IMG/VR virus record: IMGVR_UViG_3300025585_000022
Location: 1-36,394 of that record
Length of the DNA: 36,394 nt
Strand: one strand, 5' to 3'
From: a virus
Shown piece after piece: positions 14,146 to 21,088 of the stretch. The notes under the pieces were generated by a model. It worked only from the letters and a program-made list of their open reading frames with translations. It ran no database searches and was not told the DNA's origin. Numbering within the stretch: the stretch's first letter is position 1; every line of letters starts with the position of its first letter. The position numbers and the translations under genes are program-made.

Positions 14146-14801
14146 ATTACATCGCAGTCTGCACCCCTGCCCGTGATCAGGTCCATACAAACTATACATA
14201 CTGTATGGTTAATTTAGTTGCCTATCACACGCTCAACACCCAAGACGCAATCAGTCTTAAATTGATGCAAGGCACAATCATCCAAAACCAAAGGGCTGAC
14301 CTTTGCCTGGATGCAATGAGAGAGGGATGCACACACATTCTTTTCATCGATTCAGACATGACATTCCCCCAGGACCTGGTCGGAAGACTCTTGGCCCATG
14401 ACAAGGAAATTGTCGCTGCCAACTGCGCAAGACGCAGAATGCCAACTGGCCCGACAGCTCAGAACTATGACGAAAATGGCAAGCGCATTGCTGTCTACAC
14501 CATGCCAGAATCGACTGGACTGGAAGAGGTGGGAAGCATTGGCACTGGCATAATGCTCATCAAGCGCGAGGTGTTTGAGGGAATGAGCGAGCCATGGTTT
14601 GACATGCCATGGCAGTCCACACGGGGCTATATGGGCGAGGATGTGTTCTTTTGTAAGAAAGCTCAAGAGCTGGGTTACAAGGTCTACATCGACCATGATG
14701 TCTCAAAGGAAATTGGCCACATTGGCACATTTGAGTTTCGCCATGACCACACCTGGATTGTGAAAGAGGAAATGGAAAAAGAGGCGAAAGATGGCACTTA
14801 G
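14142..14801 (+). CDS. Glycosyltransferase with DxD motif, 219 aa
   Basis: A GT-A-type transferase. AVCTPARDQVHTNYTY is an N-terminal strand-loop, and ILFIDSDMTFPQDLVGRL (around residues 66-83) carries the DSD metal motif. GSIGTGIMLIKREVFE and GEDVFFCKKAQELGY supply the acceptor-side acidic residue. A final GHIGTFEFRH gives the usual histidine. Phage enzymes of this look are often annotated as GT family 2 or mannosyl-type; the acceptor is unknown. It sits among head genes, overlapping the adaptor gene by 11 bp, so virion decoration is possible. Confidence 0.78.
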   Translation: MNYIAVCTPARDQVHTNYTYCMVNLVAYHTLNTQDAISLKLMQGTIIQNQRADLCLDAMREGCTHILFIDSDMTFPQDLVGRLLAHDKEIVAANCARRRMPTGPTAQNYDENGKRIAVYTMPESTGLEEVGSIGTGIMLIKREVFEGMSEPWFDMPWQSTRGYMGEDVFFCKKAQELGYKVYIDHDVSKEIGHIGTFEFRHDHTWIVKEEMEKEAKDGT

Positions 14802-15414
14802 CACCTATGCAGAACTGAAGACTTCAATTGGCGATTGGCTCAATCGCTCAGATTTAACATCCACCATCCCAGACTTCATATCCCTGGCCGAAGCACAAAT
14901 CGAAAGAACACTGCGCACCAGGCAAATGATTGTCAGGGCCAATGCATCTTTTGACGCGCAATATGGCGCTGTGCCAAGTGATTTTCTTGAGACCAAATCT
15001 CTCAAATTGACCAGCACCAATCCACAGACTCCATTGGAGTTTTTGAGCATTGATGCCCTGGACAATAAGGCAGCCGAATACACTGCCAGTGGCAAGCCAA
15101 GATTCTTTGGTGTGGTCGGTGGCCAATTCAGAATTGTCCCGACACCTGATGCAACTTACACAACCGAGCTGACCTATTACGCAAAGTTGGCAAAGTTATC
15201 AAGCAGCAACACCAGCAACTGGCTTTTGTCTTCAAGCCCCGACATTTATCTGTATGGATCGCTTCTCCAGGCTGCACCATACTTGCAAGATGATGCGAGA
15301 ATCCAGACATGGGCCACGCTGTATGAGCGTGCCTTGAATGATTTACAAACTGCTGATGATCGCGGTGCATCTTCTGGTGGTGCATTGATCACCCGTGCAA
15401 AGACTTTTGGATAA
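14791..15414 (+). CDS. Head-tail adaptor (SU10-type)
   Basis: A 207-aa helical protein with the phrase LSTYAELKTSIGDWLNRSDL at the N terminus and PDFISLAEAQIERTLRTRQM, both typical of podophage adaptor/tail tubular A-like proteins. It matches the SU10 adaptor type that pairs with DUF5309 capsids. A central beta region follows, then a YYAKLAKLS helix and ALNDLQTADDRGASSGG near the end. It would sit below the portal and connect to the nozzle. Confidence 0.82.
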   Translation: MALSTYAELKTSIGDWLNRSDLTSTIPDFISLAEAQIERTLRTRQMIVRANASFDAQYGAVPSDFLETKSLKLTSTNPQTPLEFLSIDALDNKAAEYTASGKPRFFGVVGGQFRIVPTPDATYTTELTYYAKLAKLSSSNTSNWLLSSSPDIYLYGSLLQAAPYLQDDARIQTWATLYERALNDLQTADDRGASSGGALITRAKTFG

Positions 15415-15422
15415 GGACTGAT

Positions 15423-15818
15423 ATGTCATCATTTAGCGATTACACCGAAAACCTAGTGTTGACCTGGCTCTTTACGGGCAGCAGCGCCACACGCCCCACA
15501 GCCTGGTATGTTGGCCTCTTTACGGCTGCCCCAAGCGACACTGGTGGCGGCACTGAAGTGACCGGCAATGGTTATGCCAGAGTGGCCACCGGCACGATCT
15601 CAGGCTCTGGCACATCCACTACATTCACCAATGCAGCGGCCATCGAGTTTGCAGCTGCCAGCGGTGGCAACTGGGGATCAATTGGCTGGGCTGGTGTGTT
15701 TGACGCATCAAGCTCTGGCAATCTTTTGGCCTGGGCTCCATTGTCCACAGCTCGCACCATCAATGATGGTGATGTCTTGCGCATTCCAGCGACTTCATTG
15801 AGCATCACTTTGGCTTGA
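15423..15818 (+). CDS. Small tail/decoration protein, 131 aa
   Basis: All-beta, glycine- and serine-rich protein containing TAWYVGLFTAAPSDTGGGTEV followed by a GYARVA phrase, seen widely in phage tail-associated small proteins. It ends DGDVLRIPATSLSITLA. The exact role is unknown; it probably lies on the tail or baseplate-like end, by position at the head of the receptor-binding block. The ribosome site ATAAGGACTGATA at 15411-15423 recurs almost unchanged before the fibre gene at 17266. Confidence 0.72.
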   Translation: MSSFSDYTENLVLTWLFTGSSATRPTAWYVGLFTAAPSDTGGGTEVTGNGYARVATGTISGSGTSTTFTNAAAIEFAAASGGNWGSIGWAGVFDASSSGNLLAWAPLSTARTINDGDVLRIPATSLSITLA

Positions 15819-15819
15819 T

Positions 15820-16632
15820 ATGGCTGCCTATGGATCGGGGAATTTTGGCGCTGGTCAATACTCTGATCCAAGGGTAGGCTACGGCTACGGCTCTTATGGG
15901 GTCGGCAATTATTCAAAAGGCTCATTCGAGCCAAGCGTGACGATCACGGCCACCAGCTCCATGAGCATTGGGGCCTCGGTGGTATCAAACGCTGCGGTGG
16001 CCATTAGCGCCCAATCCACCATGTCGGTGGCAGCGACCAGGTACACATTCACATCCCTGGCAATCTCTGACACAAGCTCGATGGCAGTCACTGCCAACAG
16101 CATTCAGTCAACGCCTCTGGCAATCTCAAGCACCAGCTCCATGGCCATCAATGGCCTGCGGTATGCCATAGGTGCGGCCACCATCAGTGACACAAGCACA
16201 ATGGCTGTGGCGGCCACCAGGTATGCATCGGCTGCCATTGAGATAAGCGACAGCAGCACAGTGTCCATTGCAGCCACCAGGTACGCATTTGGCGCGTTTG
16301 ATATCTCTGACACATCCAGCATGGAAGTGTCGACCTCAGTGATTGTGAACAACGGCATTGTTTTGTCTGTTTACAGTTACATGGAGGTGGCTGCATACAC
16401 GACACAAAATGCAGTCGTTCCAATCGTTTCGACATCATCCATGTCAGTCAATGCAAGACTAAAATGGGAAGACGAGAGCGACACATCAGAGACCTGGTCA
16501 GCGATATCTGATAATTCAGAAACCTGGACACCAATCTCTGATACATCAGAAACATGGGATGCAATTAGCGACAACAGTGAAAGCTGGTCGCCAATTGCTG
16601 ATAATAGTGAATCCTGGCAAATTGCCGCATGA
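15820..16632 (+). CDS. Repeat-rich structural protein, 270 aa
   Basis: After a glycine-tyrosine head (residues 1-35), the chain consists of about nine 20-residue repeats of the form S-x-T-S-S-M-x-V followed by a variable strand and x-A-I (about residues 40-215). It then carries five 10-residue repeats SDTSETWxxI/SDNSESWxPI (220-270). The first set resembles stacked beta strands with a hydrophobic Met/Val ladder; the second puts tryptophans at fixed intervals. It is probably an elongated fibre or surface protein. I know no exact family. It sits between two tail-end genes in the receptor-binding block. Confidence 0.75.
   Translation: MAAYGSGNFGAGQYSDPRVGYGYGSYGVGNYSKGSFEPSVTITATSSMSIGASVVSNAAVAISAQSTMSVAATRYTFTSLAISDTSSMAVTANSIQSTPLAISSTSSMAINGLRYAIGAATISDTSTMAVAATRYASAAIEISDSSTVSIAATRYAFGAFDISDTSSMEVSTSVIVNNGIVLSVYSYMEVAAYTTQNAVVPIVSTSSMSVNARLKWEDESDTSETWSAISDNSETWTPISDTSETWDAISDNSESWSPIADNSESWQIAA
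15937..16475 (+). repeat. About nine degenerate 60-bp coding repeats
   Basis: Tandem units of roughly 60 bp encode the ISDTSSMAVxATRYxxxx-type repeat. Several units share near-identical DNA such as ATCTCTGACACAAGC or GCCACCAGGTA, which would favour repeat-number change by slippage or recombination. The left boundary is approximate. Confidence 0.65.
16477..16629 (+). repeat. Five 30-bp coding repeats (SDxSExW)
   Basis: Five consecutive 30-bp units encode S-D-x-S-E-x-W-x-x-I, alternating DT and DN variants. The last unit is slightly diverged (ADNSESWQIAA) and ends the gene. Confidence 0.85.
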
Positions 16633-16640
16633 GGTGAAAA

Positions 16641-17255
16641 ATGGCTGATACCACAACGACCAACCTATTACTGACCAAACCAGAGGTCGGTGCATCTACT
16701 GATTCCTGGGGAACGAAGCTCAACAGCGACCTGGACACCATTGATGCATTGTTTGATGCCGGGCCAGTGCTGAAGGTGGCCAAGGGTGGCACTGGCATTT
16801 CATCTTTTGGCACTGGTGTGGCCACCTGGCTTGGCACTCCATCGAGCGCAAACCTGGCAGCTGCCGTGACGGGTGAGACAGGCTCTGGCGCTTTGGTGTT
16901 TGGCACAGCGCCAACAATAAGCAATCCGACTGTCACCAACTATGTTGAAACGCCTTACAGCGCAAACAGCAGCACTGCCATCACGATTGACTTGGCCAAT
17001 GGCACAGTCCAAATCATCACCCTGACAGGCAATGCCACAATCACCATGCCAACGGCCACCAGTGGCAAATCGTTTGTGATGATGTTGAAGCAAGATGGCA
17101 CTGGCTCTCGAACTGTGACCTGGTCGACAGTCAAGTGGGCAGGCGGCACAGCACCGACAATCACCAGCACGGCCTCGCGCCTGGACCTATTGTCATTTTT
17201 CGCTGACGGGACAAATTGGTATGGCGCTGTAATTTCACAGAACTACACACCATAA
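16641..17255 (+). CDS. Tail fibre-like structural protein, 204 aa
   Basis: Begins [20 protein letters not shown] followed by GTKLN and DLDTIDALF, a common start for phage tail fibre and baseplate-end proteins. The glycine-rich [14 protein letters not shown] motif follows, and a C-terminal beta domain ([36 protein letters not shown]) resembles the phage tail-fibre/spike collar strands. It is probably the virion-attached part of the receptor-binding apparatus, with the large 805-aa fibre downstream. Confidence 0.78.
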
Positions 17256-17265
17256 GGACTGATAA

Positions 17266-19683
17266 ATGTTTGCAGCATCTAAAACAGCATCAGTCTCTGG
17301 TGGCTATCAAATCTCACGCAGTTTGCGCTTTAACAGCGCAGATTCTGCTTATCTGAATCGTACCCCTGCGAGTGCGGGAAATCGTAGAACTTGGACTTTA
17401 TCTGCATGGGTTAAGCGGTCTGAGATAAGTGCATCTGGTGCAAGAAATTTGTATTTTGTGGATGGCAACTCAGATTCCACATACGCATCGCTTTTCTTCC
17501 AGACCACAAACACTTTTATCTTTGAGGCTTGGACTGTAAATTACTTTGTTTCTACTGCTGTTTATCGTGACCCATCTGCGTGGTATCACATTGTTATCGC
17601 TTGGGATACAACTCAGGCAACTAACACAAACCGAGTAAAGGTTTATATAAATGGGCAAGATGCGGCAGGGTCTTATAACTACCCATCTCAAAATGCTGAT
17701 GGCCCAATAAGTAACTCAGTCATTCAGTATTTGGGGAGAGCATCTACCAATACATTTAACGGCTACATGACCGAAGTGAATTTCATCGATGGTCAAGCCC
17801 TAACCCCATCATCATTCGGTGAAACAAACTCACAAACAGGCGTATGGCAACCTAAAGCCTACTCAGGCTCATACGGCACTAACGGCTTTTATCTGAACTT
17901 CTCAGACAACAGTAACACCACCGCGGCCACGCTGGGCAAGGACTACTCAGGCAACGGCAACAACTGGACACCTAATAACTTCAGCGTGACTGCTGGTGCG
18001 GGTAATGACTCTCTTGTTGATTCACCAACATCGTATGGAACTGATACTGGTGTGGGTGGGACTGTGCGGGGTAATTACGCTACGCTGAATCCGCTGAACG
18101 CTACGCCATCGGCATTGATTTCAAATGGCAATTTGTATGCGTTATCCAATTTGTCAGGACATTACACTTCTGCCCCTGCAACAATTTCTGTAACTTCTGG
18201 CAAGTGGTATGCAGAAGTTGTTTTCACAAGAGTGGCGGGTTCTACTGATTCTTATTATGTTGGTGTTGCTGATGCGGCATGGCAAGCAAGCCAAATAGAT
18301 AACGGCGGTTGGTATGGTCGTTGGTGGCGAGATGGCACTGGTTATGCTTATGGCGATACTGGAAACAAAATAACTGGCACAACATCTTCATCGTATGGCG
18401 CAACCTATACGCAAGGCGATGTAATTGGCATTGCTTTGGACATGGATGCTGGAACGCTGACATTCTATAAAAACGGCACAAGTCAAGGTGTTGCGTTTAC
18501 AGGCATCACAGGCACTAAAACAATGGCGGCTGGTGCTTACAAAGACACAGGCATCACTTTGTCGTTTGACATCAATCTTGGTCAACGCCCCTTCGCCTAC
18601 ACAGCCCCCTCTGGCTTCAAAGCACTCTGCACACAGAACTTGCCAACGCCTACGATTGGGGCGACTACGGCTACGCAAGCAAATCAATACTTTACGCCAG
18701 TCTTGTACACAGGTAATGGCTCAAATGGAAACGCAATTACAGTCGGTTTTCAACCTGATTTTACTTGGCTTAAAGGCCGTAGCAATGCTCAAAATCACGG
18801 CTTGTTTGATGCTGTTCGAGGTGCAGGAAAAGGATTGCAATCCAATAGCACTGGTGCTGAATACAATTTGACAGACACCCTTAACAGTTTTAATGCAAAC
18901 GGATTTACAGTAAATAACGACAGCACATTTAATGGAAGTGGTTACACCTATGTCGCATGGAACTGGAAAGCCAACGGCTCTGGCTCAACCAACACATCAG
19001 GCACTATCACTTCAACAGTAAGCGCAAACACTACGAGTGGGTTTAGTGTGGTGACTTATACAGGCACAGGTTCAGCCGCTACGATTGGACATGGCTTAGG
19101 CGTTGCCCCATCAATGCTTATTTTTAAGTCAAGAAGCAATGGCTCTGAAAACTGGAATGTTTATCACAAGTCACTTGGCGCATCTACGAACATTCTGCTT
19201 AATTCTACAATTGCGGCTTTTACCGATGCAGCGTTTCTTAACGCTACTGCACCAACATCAACTGTGTTATCGGTAGGTGGTTCTGGTTCAACTGGTACTA
19301 ATCAAAGTAGTGGCACTTATGTTTGCTATGCGTTTGCTGAAGTAGCAGGGTATAGCAAGTTTGGCTCTTACACAGGCAATGGTTCTACTAATTTTATCTA
19401 CACAGGCTTTAGACCCGCCTATGTTTTAATCAGAAGAACTAATGTTGCCGCAGGATGGGGAATACTTGATTCAGCTAGAAATTCAATTAACTCAGCAAAT
19501 AAATCTATAAACGCCAATGTTTCTGATGCTGAAGGCGTAGGCACAGCAGGCTCTCAATATGTAGATTTGTTATCTAATGGCTTTAAATGTCTTGATAGTT
19601 CTGCTGGATTCAATGCTAGTGGTGACACATACATCTACATGGCATTTGCCGAAGCACCATTTAAATATTCCCTTGCACGATAG
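17266..19683 (+). CDS. Large tail fibre with LamG-like and SPRY-like domains, 805 aa
   Basis: Residues about 20-185 look like a LamG/concanavalin-like jelly roll (SLRFNSADSAYLNRTP, WTLSAWVKRS, RVKVYINGQ). A linker DYSGNGNNWTPNNFS follows. Residues about 300-450 look like a SPRY/B30.2 fold (SGKWYAEVVF, GDVIGIALDMDAGTLTFYKN). The C-terminal half has two repeats starting YTGNGS and including the phrase GFQPDFTWLKGRS or GFRPAYVLIRRT, of a DUF7483-like type. This would be the receptor-binding fibre. Base and codon use are more AT-rich than neighbouring genes, a sign of recent exchange. Confidence 0.82.
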   Translation: MFAASKTASVSGGYQISRSLRFNSADSAYLNRTPASAGNRRTWTLSAWVKRSEISASGARNLYFVDGNSDSTYASLFFQTTNTFIFEAWTVNYFVSTAVYRDPSAWYHIVIAWDTTQATNTNRVKVYINGQDAAGSYNYPSQNADGPISNSVIQYLGRASTNTFNGYMTEVNFIDGQALTPSSFGETNSQTGVWQPKAYSGSYGTNGFYLNFSDNSNTTAATLGKDYSGNGNNWTPNNFSVTAGAGNDSLVDSPTSYGTDTGVGGTVRGNYATLNPLNATPSALISNGNLYALSNLSGHYTSAPATISVTSGKWYAEVVFTRVAGSTDSYYVGVADAAWQASQIDNGGWYGRWWRDGTGYAYGDTGNKITGTTSSSYGATYTQGDVIGIALDMDAGTLTFYKNGTSQGVAFTGITGTKTMAAGAYKDTGITLSFDINLGQRPFAYTAPSGFKALCTQNLPTPTIGATTATQANQYFTPVLYTGNGSNGNAITVGFQPDFTWLKGRSNAQNHGLFDAVRGAGKGLQSNSTGAEYNLTDTLNSFNANGFTVNNDSTFNGSGYTYVAWNWKANGSGSTNTSGTITSTVSANTTSGFSVVTYTGTGSAATIGHGLGVAPSMLIFKSRSNGSENWNVYHKSLGASTNILLNSTIAAFTDAAFLNATAPTSTVLSVGGSGSTGTNQSSGTYVCYAFAEVAGYSKFGSYTGNGSTNFIYTGFRPAYVLIRRTNVAAGWGILDSARNSINSANKSINANVSDAEGVGTAGSQYVDLLSNGFKCLDSSAGFNASGDTYIYMAFAEAPFKYSLAR

Positions 19684-20490: not shown

Positions 20491-20603
20491 TCTATGCTCT
20501 GGTCCTACTAGCAGCTGCCGAATATAGATGCACCAGGTGGATTTGGTCGGGTGATGTCTACAATCGAAGGGTTGTCTGCATCAAGTGGGAGAAGAGGACA
20601 TGA
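20487..20603 (+). CDS. Tiny membrane-associated protein, 38 aa
   Basis: Hydrophobic start MIYALVLLAAAEYRCTRWIW followed by a basic tail ending CIKWEKRT. The start may act as a signal or membrane anchor. ATGA overlaps link it to the gene before and to the HNH endonuclease after. No known family. Confidence 0.5.
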   Translation: MIYALVLLAAAEYRCTRWIWSGDVYNRRVVCIKWEKRT

Positions 20604-21088
20604 TTGACCATGAAACAGTAAAAAAATTGTTTCACTATGACGCTGAAAGTGGCATGCTACTTTGGCGAAATGGTAACAATCGAAATGTTAAGCCTTGGCA
20701 ACAAGCCAAAGCGCCAAATGGCAATGGCTATTACTCTGTAAAAATAAACAATAAAAGCTATCCAGTCCACAGAATAGTTTGGCTTTATGTTTATGGTGAT
20801 TTCCCACAATCAGACATTGACCACAAAAATAGAATCAGAAATGACAATAGACTTTGCAATTTGCGTGCTGTAACAAGAACAGACAATTGCCAAAATATTT
20901 CATTGCCAAGCCACAATAAGAGTGGCCATCTAGGTGTGTCTTGGTTAAAAACACACAATGCTTGGACAGTCTATGTCAAAGTAAATAAGAAAAATAAATG
21001 GCTTGGTCATTACAAAAATTTAGACGCAGCCATTGCTGCAAGAAAAGCTGGTGAAGCTAAGTATTACAACTTACCAGAGGTGACATGA
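20600..21088 (+). CDS. HNH homing endonuclease with AP2-like domain
   Basis: A 162-aa protein. The N-terminal part has a NUMOD/HNH start (FHYDAESGMLLWRNG). The HNH_3 core is IDHKNRIRNDNRLCNLRAVT, with the asparagine-rich follow-on TRTDNCQN. A C-terminal AP2-like DNA-binding region (GHLGVSWLKTHNAWTVYVKV...KWLGHYKNLDAAIAARKAGE) completes it. Such free-standing enzymes nick or cut phage DNA at target sites and spread by homing. The gene is markedly AT-rich compared with its neighbours, a sign of transfer. It fits exactly between ATGA overlaps on both sides (20600-20603 and 21085-21088). Confidence 0.9.
   Translation: MIDHETVKKLFHYDAESGMLLWRNGNNRNVKPWQQAKAPNGNGYYSVKINNKSYPVHRIVWLYVYGDFPQSDIDHKNRIRNDNRLCNLRAVTRTDNCQNISLPSHNKSGHLGVSWLKTHNAWTVYVKVNKKNKWLGHYKNLDAAIAARKAGEAKYYNLPEVT

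Follow-up and report, generated by a model that had tools for sequence, protein, structure and literature searches.

What does a protein built largely of short repeats do for a virus that encodes it among its tail genes? The window, the whole 36,394-nucleotide stretch of viral DNA that we analyzed (IMG/VR record IMGVR_UViG_3300025585_000022), encodes such a protein, in which 20-amino acid units are followed by 10-amino acid units that each carry a tryptophan. The original prediction, made from the sequence alone, missed the context of this gene: the gene directly upstream is a homologue of the gene for the fibre I bead of podophage GP4. The features used in the analysis are as follows.

14791..15414, + strand, SU10-type head-tail adaptor (PF24175, E 7.7e-41)
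15423..15818, + strand, homologue of podophage GP4 gp80, the fibre I bead, 131 aa (PF23140, E 2.6e-40; PDB 8jou_a, E 1e-9)
15820..16632, + strand, repeat protein, 270 aa plus stop (ATG at 15820, stop ends at 16632; ORF call, periodicity, family alignment)
15820..15939, + strand, Gly/Tyr-rich head of the repeat protein, residues 1-40, ending before 15940, with two YGxGxYS-type copies (alignment of 36 sequences)
15940..16479, + strand, nine 20-aa units, residues 41-220 (periodicity, alignment, AlphaFold2 strands)
16480..16629, + strand, five 10-aa tryptophan decads (D-x-S-E-x-W-x-x-I-x), residues 221-270 (periodicity, alignment)
16641..17255, + strand, short tail-fibre-like protein, 204 aa (PHROG 9017 tail fiber protein, E 2.4e-11)
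17266..19683, + strand, large fibre with an SPRY domain and DUF7483, candidate adhesin (PF24299, E 2.1e-117; PF00622, E 6.1e-15)
20585-21088, HNH endonuclease gene in the late region (phrog_99, E 6e-56)

The repeats are real and are kept mostly at the protein level

We confirmed that the nine 20-residue units and the tryptophan decads of ORF 15820-16632 are real repeats. At a lag of 20, 86 of 250 residue pairs were identical (34%), a number reached by none of 20,000 shuffles of the protein, and the best value at any lag in 2,000 shuffles was 0.187. BLOSUM autocorrelation gave z scores of 13.2 at lag 20 and 9.2 at lag 10, while seven other genes of the window scored at most 4.0. The ORF coordinates in the original prediction are exact, and its count of about nine 20-residue and five 10-residue units holds, but its description of a protein made almost wholly of repeats does not extend to residues 1-40, the head, which lies outside the repeat array. 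The ninth 20-residue unit holds K215-W216, and W216 stands exactly 10 residues before the first tryptophan of the decads; with those at 226, 236, 246, 256 and 266, it forms a series of six tryptophans at an exact spacing of 10 (1+5).

Two other details of the repeats had to be revised. ATRY, which had been proposed for the 20-residue unit, is not its core: among 49 distinct 270-aa relatives, Ser at unit position 6 is the residue fixed to within rounding, and Arg occupies unit position 14 in 52%. The claimed similarity between units at the DNA level proved to be low, with a mean of 45% between 20-residue units, compared to 43% in genes whose synonymous codons had been shuffled (2 of 1,000 shuffles reached 45%), and the decads were no more alike than their codon shuffles (485 of 1,000 reached the same value). 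Tandem Repeats Finder, run on the repeat gene, detected no more than 2.4 copies of a 30-base unit, and these lay in the decads. Since the DNA likeness of both units and decads is close to that of codon shuffles, we conclude that the repeats are kept mostly at the protein level.

The tryptophan array is constrained apart from the 20-residue units

The repeat protein gene is a widespread phage gene. A scan of IMG/VR with the protein yielded 133 relatives among 151 candidate stretches, and 418 of 460 candidate stretches encoded a relative when the family profile was used; the best 80 relatives from each scan were kept. No named family could be assigned to the protein, in line with the original prediction: Pfam returned no family above its cut-off, the PDB returned no sequence match at E ≤ 5, and the sole PHROG match was a weak one (phrog_31951, E 0.0014, residues 55-144 only) to a group of unknown function. 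A search of the literature other than the GP4 tail paper itself found no paper describing the family. We rejected the best PDB match of the family profile, a weak one to the Hap autotransporter (E 0.00088 for the whole, 0.085 for the best stretch), as compositional likeness, and an apolipoprotein match of locus L085 as a chance match of repetitive sequence.

The prediction that copy number would change was borne out only in part. In a 36-sequence alignment of the window's own family, the number of 20-residue units was constant at nine, and length changed only in a 17-residue segment of the head, the first 17 residues, which 253-aa relatives lack, and through two decads missing from L062 and L063. 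Of 101 family loci (the window's own record included), 96 include the upstream flank; 77 of these encode proteins of 270 aa and 16 encode proteins of 253 aa, all with six tryptophans, and 3 encode proteins with four. The exact spacing of 10 between six tryptophans was thus found in 93 of the 96 loci; the other three, which have lost two decads, have 1+3 tryptophans. Each unit was more similar to the unit at its position in other phages (0.57-0.80 identity) than to most other units within one protein (0.17-0.70), and this position-specific likeness indicates that the units are not being homogenised.

Whole units do change in number in a sister family, encoded beside gp80 homologues whose likeness to the query is 84% or more. 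The sister proteins are 185-411 aa long (493 aa in two more distant ones, L227 and L228), and the distance from a 'WDAYGSV' anchor to the first tryptophan varies by whole multiples of 20 residues, corresponding to about 6 to 10 units, while most have six tryptophans and a small number have three or four. Profile comparison shows the two families to be homologous, with an hhalign probability of 98.8%, a score that repeats can inflate. Pairwise identity was higher in the decads than in the 20-residue units both in the window family (0.82 vs 0.50) and in the sister family (0.81 vs 0.65). Because six tryptophans are kept in 93 of the 96 family loci and in the majority of sister proteins (215 to 493 aa), we conclude that the tryptophan array is constrained apart from the 20-residue units. 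As read by eye, more distant partners retain the pattern, with six aromatic decads in L216 and tryptophan plus arginine-type decads in PBC5 and Atu_ph08.

Several unusual arrangements were noted in single loci. A near relative of the repeat protein in ctjtQ328 (L086:6398-7078) ends after about two decads and reflects either a truncated gene or an assembly error, while a 411-aa protein directly behind gp80 in L157 has about 100 extra residues inserted within the tryptophan decad array. Consecutive proteins with the same W-rich C-terminal tail are encoded in phage MEP401 (gp59 and gp58; L083:3671-4794) and in L121:3256-4379, and in both pairs the 20-residue units are found in the first protein only. 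Since the second protein has the tail without these units, the W-rich tail looks like a separate docking module.

The repeat gene is paired with a gp80 bead gene

The upstream gene belongs to PF23140, named 'Podophage GP4 fiber I protein', and is homologous to the bead of the solved GP4 structure, PDB 8JOU, which holds 10 gp80 chains and 3 chains of a 93-aa collar protein. In the window, the gp80 homologue ends 1 nt before the repeat ORF. This pairing is constant: a gp80 homologue lay 1-4 nt upstream of the repeat ORF in all 96 family loci with upstream flank (1 nt in 95, 4 nt in one), and the remaining 5 of the 101 loci held no gp80 within the stretch covered.

To avoid choosing loci by their repeats, we fetched 112 loci by gp80 alone. 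A gp80 gene was called in 101 of these (11 were dropped), and 90 downstream neighbours of at least 90 aa were tested. A period of 17-25 with z ≥ 5 was found in 77 of these 90 +1 genes (median z 14.7), compared to 7 of 725 genes at other positions in the same loci. Because a single close clade accounts for 80 of the 112 loci, we also counted by gp80 clusters at 50% identity. By this count, with some loci chosen by the repeat protein, a period-20 gene stands at +1 in 7 of 21 testable clusters. With a windowed test of up to 12 loci per cluster, within the stretch covered, 13 of 24 clusters (50% identity) hold a same-strand gene with a period of 20-22 and z ≥ 6; a windowed z of 5 was reached by none of 723 shuffled genes. 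The windowed test found no period-20 gene in the other 11 clusters, among which L113, L117 and L118 look repetitive by eye only, and none was found in the phiM5-like loci L221-L226. Two period signals were set aside, one on the minus strand of L219 at lag 22 and a collagen-like one in L233 at lag 25. The neighbour of gp80 in Mycobacterium phage GeneCoco shares the 20-residue unit, without the short-repeat tail.

The bead gene itself is common, with 264 records matching GP4 gp80 in one collection. A scan of genome contigs with the window gp80 gave 72 pattern stretches and no relative. In L219 and L220, two tandem gp80 domains lie within a 264-aa ORF, and in L213 a second gp80 domain lies at the end of the next gene.

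The repeat protein as a proposed partner of a bead-chain fibre

Because the repeat gene lies directly behind the bead gene in nearly all relatives, we propose that the repeat protein is a structural partner, either backbone or tip, of a gp80 bead-chain fibre in a short-tailed phage, a reading to which we assign a probability of roughly 0.55. The protein would then work with the gp80 homologue in a bead-chain appendage, presumably located at the podovirus head-tail junction. Its exchangeable N-terminus would be the outer tip or an adaptor, if the orientation is as we suppose, and the 20-residue units would form a beta-rich shaft. The six-tryptophan C-terminal array would be an extended docking strip, unfolded when alone, on which gp80 subunits or another virion ring might assemble. 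Adjacency of two genes does not by itself demonstrate binding to gp80; both this binding and the choice of repeat type that would make the contact are matters that we infer. The nearly fixed count of five decads matches the five gp80 dimers reported for the GP4 fibre, while the 20-residue unit is the feature that the tailless GeneCoco neighbour also has; either repeat type may make the contact. The annotation of BcepIL02 gp56 and the LSH1 module, both described below, speak for a partner role. One point against it is that the Burkholderia counterpart shares the architecture and the position of the repeat protein, but not detectable sequence; others are the 11 gp80 clusters in which no period-20 gene was found, the lack of a GP4-type collar in the window, and the proteomes of JC1 and phiM5.

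We considered that the decads might bind a virion ring, either the adaptor or the collar, rather than gp80, with gp80 packed around the 20-residue units or making no contact. A collar of the GP4 type (8jou_D) is carried by 16 of 235 loci (L091, L112-L114, L117, L118, L202-L209, L234 and L235), whose repeat proteins have, as judged by eye and with the tails of L202-L208 not each read, short repeats of the Arg type and not of the Trp type. Moreover, MEP401 gp58, which has no 20-residue units, ends in the same W-rich tail as gp59. Both observations favour contact with a ring, but the tail types were assigned by eye, and Bcep22-like phages or close relatives of these account for 12 of the 16 collar loci. 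We regard contact with a ring as rather unlikely.

The tryptophan array might also act as a molecular ruler within the proposed bead-chain fibre. One decad, about 34 angstroms long if extended, would dock one gp80 dimer, such that five decads would give five dimers (ten chains) and the three-decad relatives would have three-dimer fibres, while the 20-residue units would form a separate and freely variable shaft; this is a conjecture in which we place little confidence. Bead genes of the gp80 type occur in many phages, but the products of the adjoining genes mostly carry the label 'hypothetical'. If a partner could be recognised by its 20-residue shaft and counted tryptophan tail, such fibre modules could be found from sequence, and one could ask directly if the bead number of a viral fibre is set by how many short repeats the partner has.

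Predicted structure and a self-contained fibre

We examined the structure predicted by AlphaFold2 from the 36-sequence alignment. The single-chain model (mean pLDDT 61, pTM 0.59) shows the 20-residue units as a beta-solenoid with one 20-residue coil per unit and a pLDDT of up to 92 per block of ten residues, but gives no confident structure to the head or to residues 212-270. Thus, the monomer prediction supports the earlier proposal of a beta-solenoid or fibrous surface protein to the extent that the protein is predicted to be beta-rich and is probably fibrous. The same method applied to the sister family gave a poor model (mean pLDDT 45), and the solenoid could therefore stem from the repetitiveness of the sequence itself; the LSH1 report (PMC13243795) warns that AlphaFold can hallucinate beta-helices on such sequences. 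We consider a beta-solenoid fold of the 20-residue units to be possible from these models. The tryptophan-zipper end that had been suggested is not borne out by the monomer model, on which alone cross-strand pairing of tryptophans was judged: residues 212-270 have a pLDDT below 50 (34-41 per block from residue 211 onward), and no strand is predicted beyond residue 212. The tryptophan array is probably unfolded until it meets a partner.

This model bears on a second explanation, that the protein is a self-contained fibre or spike, either a beta-solenoid or a trimeric beta-fibre, that binds the host on its own and is only a positional neighbour of gp80 in the tail gene cluster. The confident coils of the monomer would fit such a spike, as would the varying unit number in the sister family, which is expected of fibre shafts. 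Solved beta-solenoids of many families also align with the model, with Z up to 18.1, in a second look confined to Foldseek's own list, although Foldseek itself found nothing in the PDB at E ≤ 0.001; a match to a viral model at 3.3e-4 had a TM of 0.10 and was not used. With the solenoid itself in question as an artefact, and with the constant gp80 pairing and the nearly fixed 1+5 tryptophans left unexplained, we judge a self-contained fibre to be unlikely.

Virion evidence from relatives

Evidence that counterparts of the repeat protein are in the virion is mixed. In the Burkholderia phage BcepIL02, the bead gp55, the repeat protein gp56 and the collar gp57 each carry the annotation 'virion-associated phage protein'. 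Mass spectrometry of JC1 found the bead gp53 and the collar gp55, while gp54 is missing from both the virion list and the printed table; similarly, the genes flanking phiM5_18 are noted as 'detected in phage particle proteome', while the counterpart phiM5_18 has no such note. A low-copy protein could have escaped detection, or the protein may be absent from the particle. The latter would be expected of an assembly factor that does not stay in the virion, such as a template or chaperone on which gp80 subunits are held while the fibre is built, but we find this improbable given the annotation of BcepIL02 gp56, the ease with which about 5-15 copies per virion would be missed beside some 50 gp80 (estimated from the 8jou chain counts and fivefold fibres), and the fact that chaperones are rarely arrays of this kind.

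Comparison with known systems

The nearest solved system is fibre I of the Ralstonia podophage GP4 (PDB 8JOU, PF23140). The phage of the window is likewise a podovirus, and its gp80 homologue lies directly upstream of the repeat gene. In the 2023 GP4 tail paper of Zheng, fibre I reportedly consists of gp80 dimers, five in number, that an elongated rope protein connects, and there are said to be five such fibres per virion. The bead chain of GP4 would thus need an elongated rope protein; a search with the Burkholderia counterparts did not find the GP4 rope sequence in the PDB. GP4 fibre I differs in having a collar, as no window ORF of at least 50 aa matches the GP4-type collar (8jou_D) at E ≤ 1.

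Repeat proteins of Bcep22-like phages (BcepIL02 gp56, DC1 gp29 and BcepMigl gp28; phrog_19041) resemble that of the window in lying directly behind a gp80 homologue and in having period-20 beta-like units and a short-repeat C-terminal tail. They differ in that their tails are of the Arg type, while those of the window family are of the Trp type, and no sequence similarity was detected between the two groups (hhalign probability 0.1%).

Bead-like proteins are also found outside the podoviruses. The report on the siphovirus LSH1 states that a gp80-like protein is accompanied in every case by a second protein, which has a putative adhesin at its N-terminus and a beta-helix that is poorly predicted and trails off into a disordered C-terminal end; this gp34-gp36 module resembles the window pairing by description (PMC13243795). 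In the Anabaena myophage A-1(L), each virion has five neck fibres at the head-tail junction, and these are bead-chain appendages; successive beads are linked head to tail through N-terminal hairpins, with about 14 gp81 copies, and the accessible portion of that report describes no repeat rope protein (PMC10966104). The bead fibre is already a known kind of appendage, and what is added here is a large family of partner genes, set by adjacency to gp80, with an exact 20-residue period and a counted tail.
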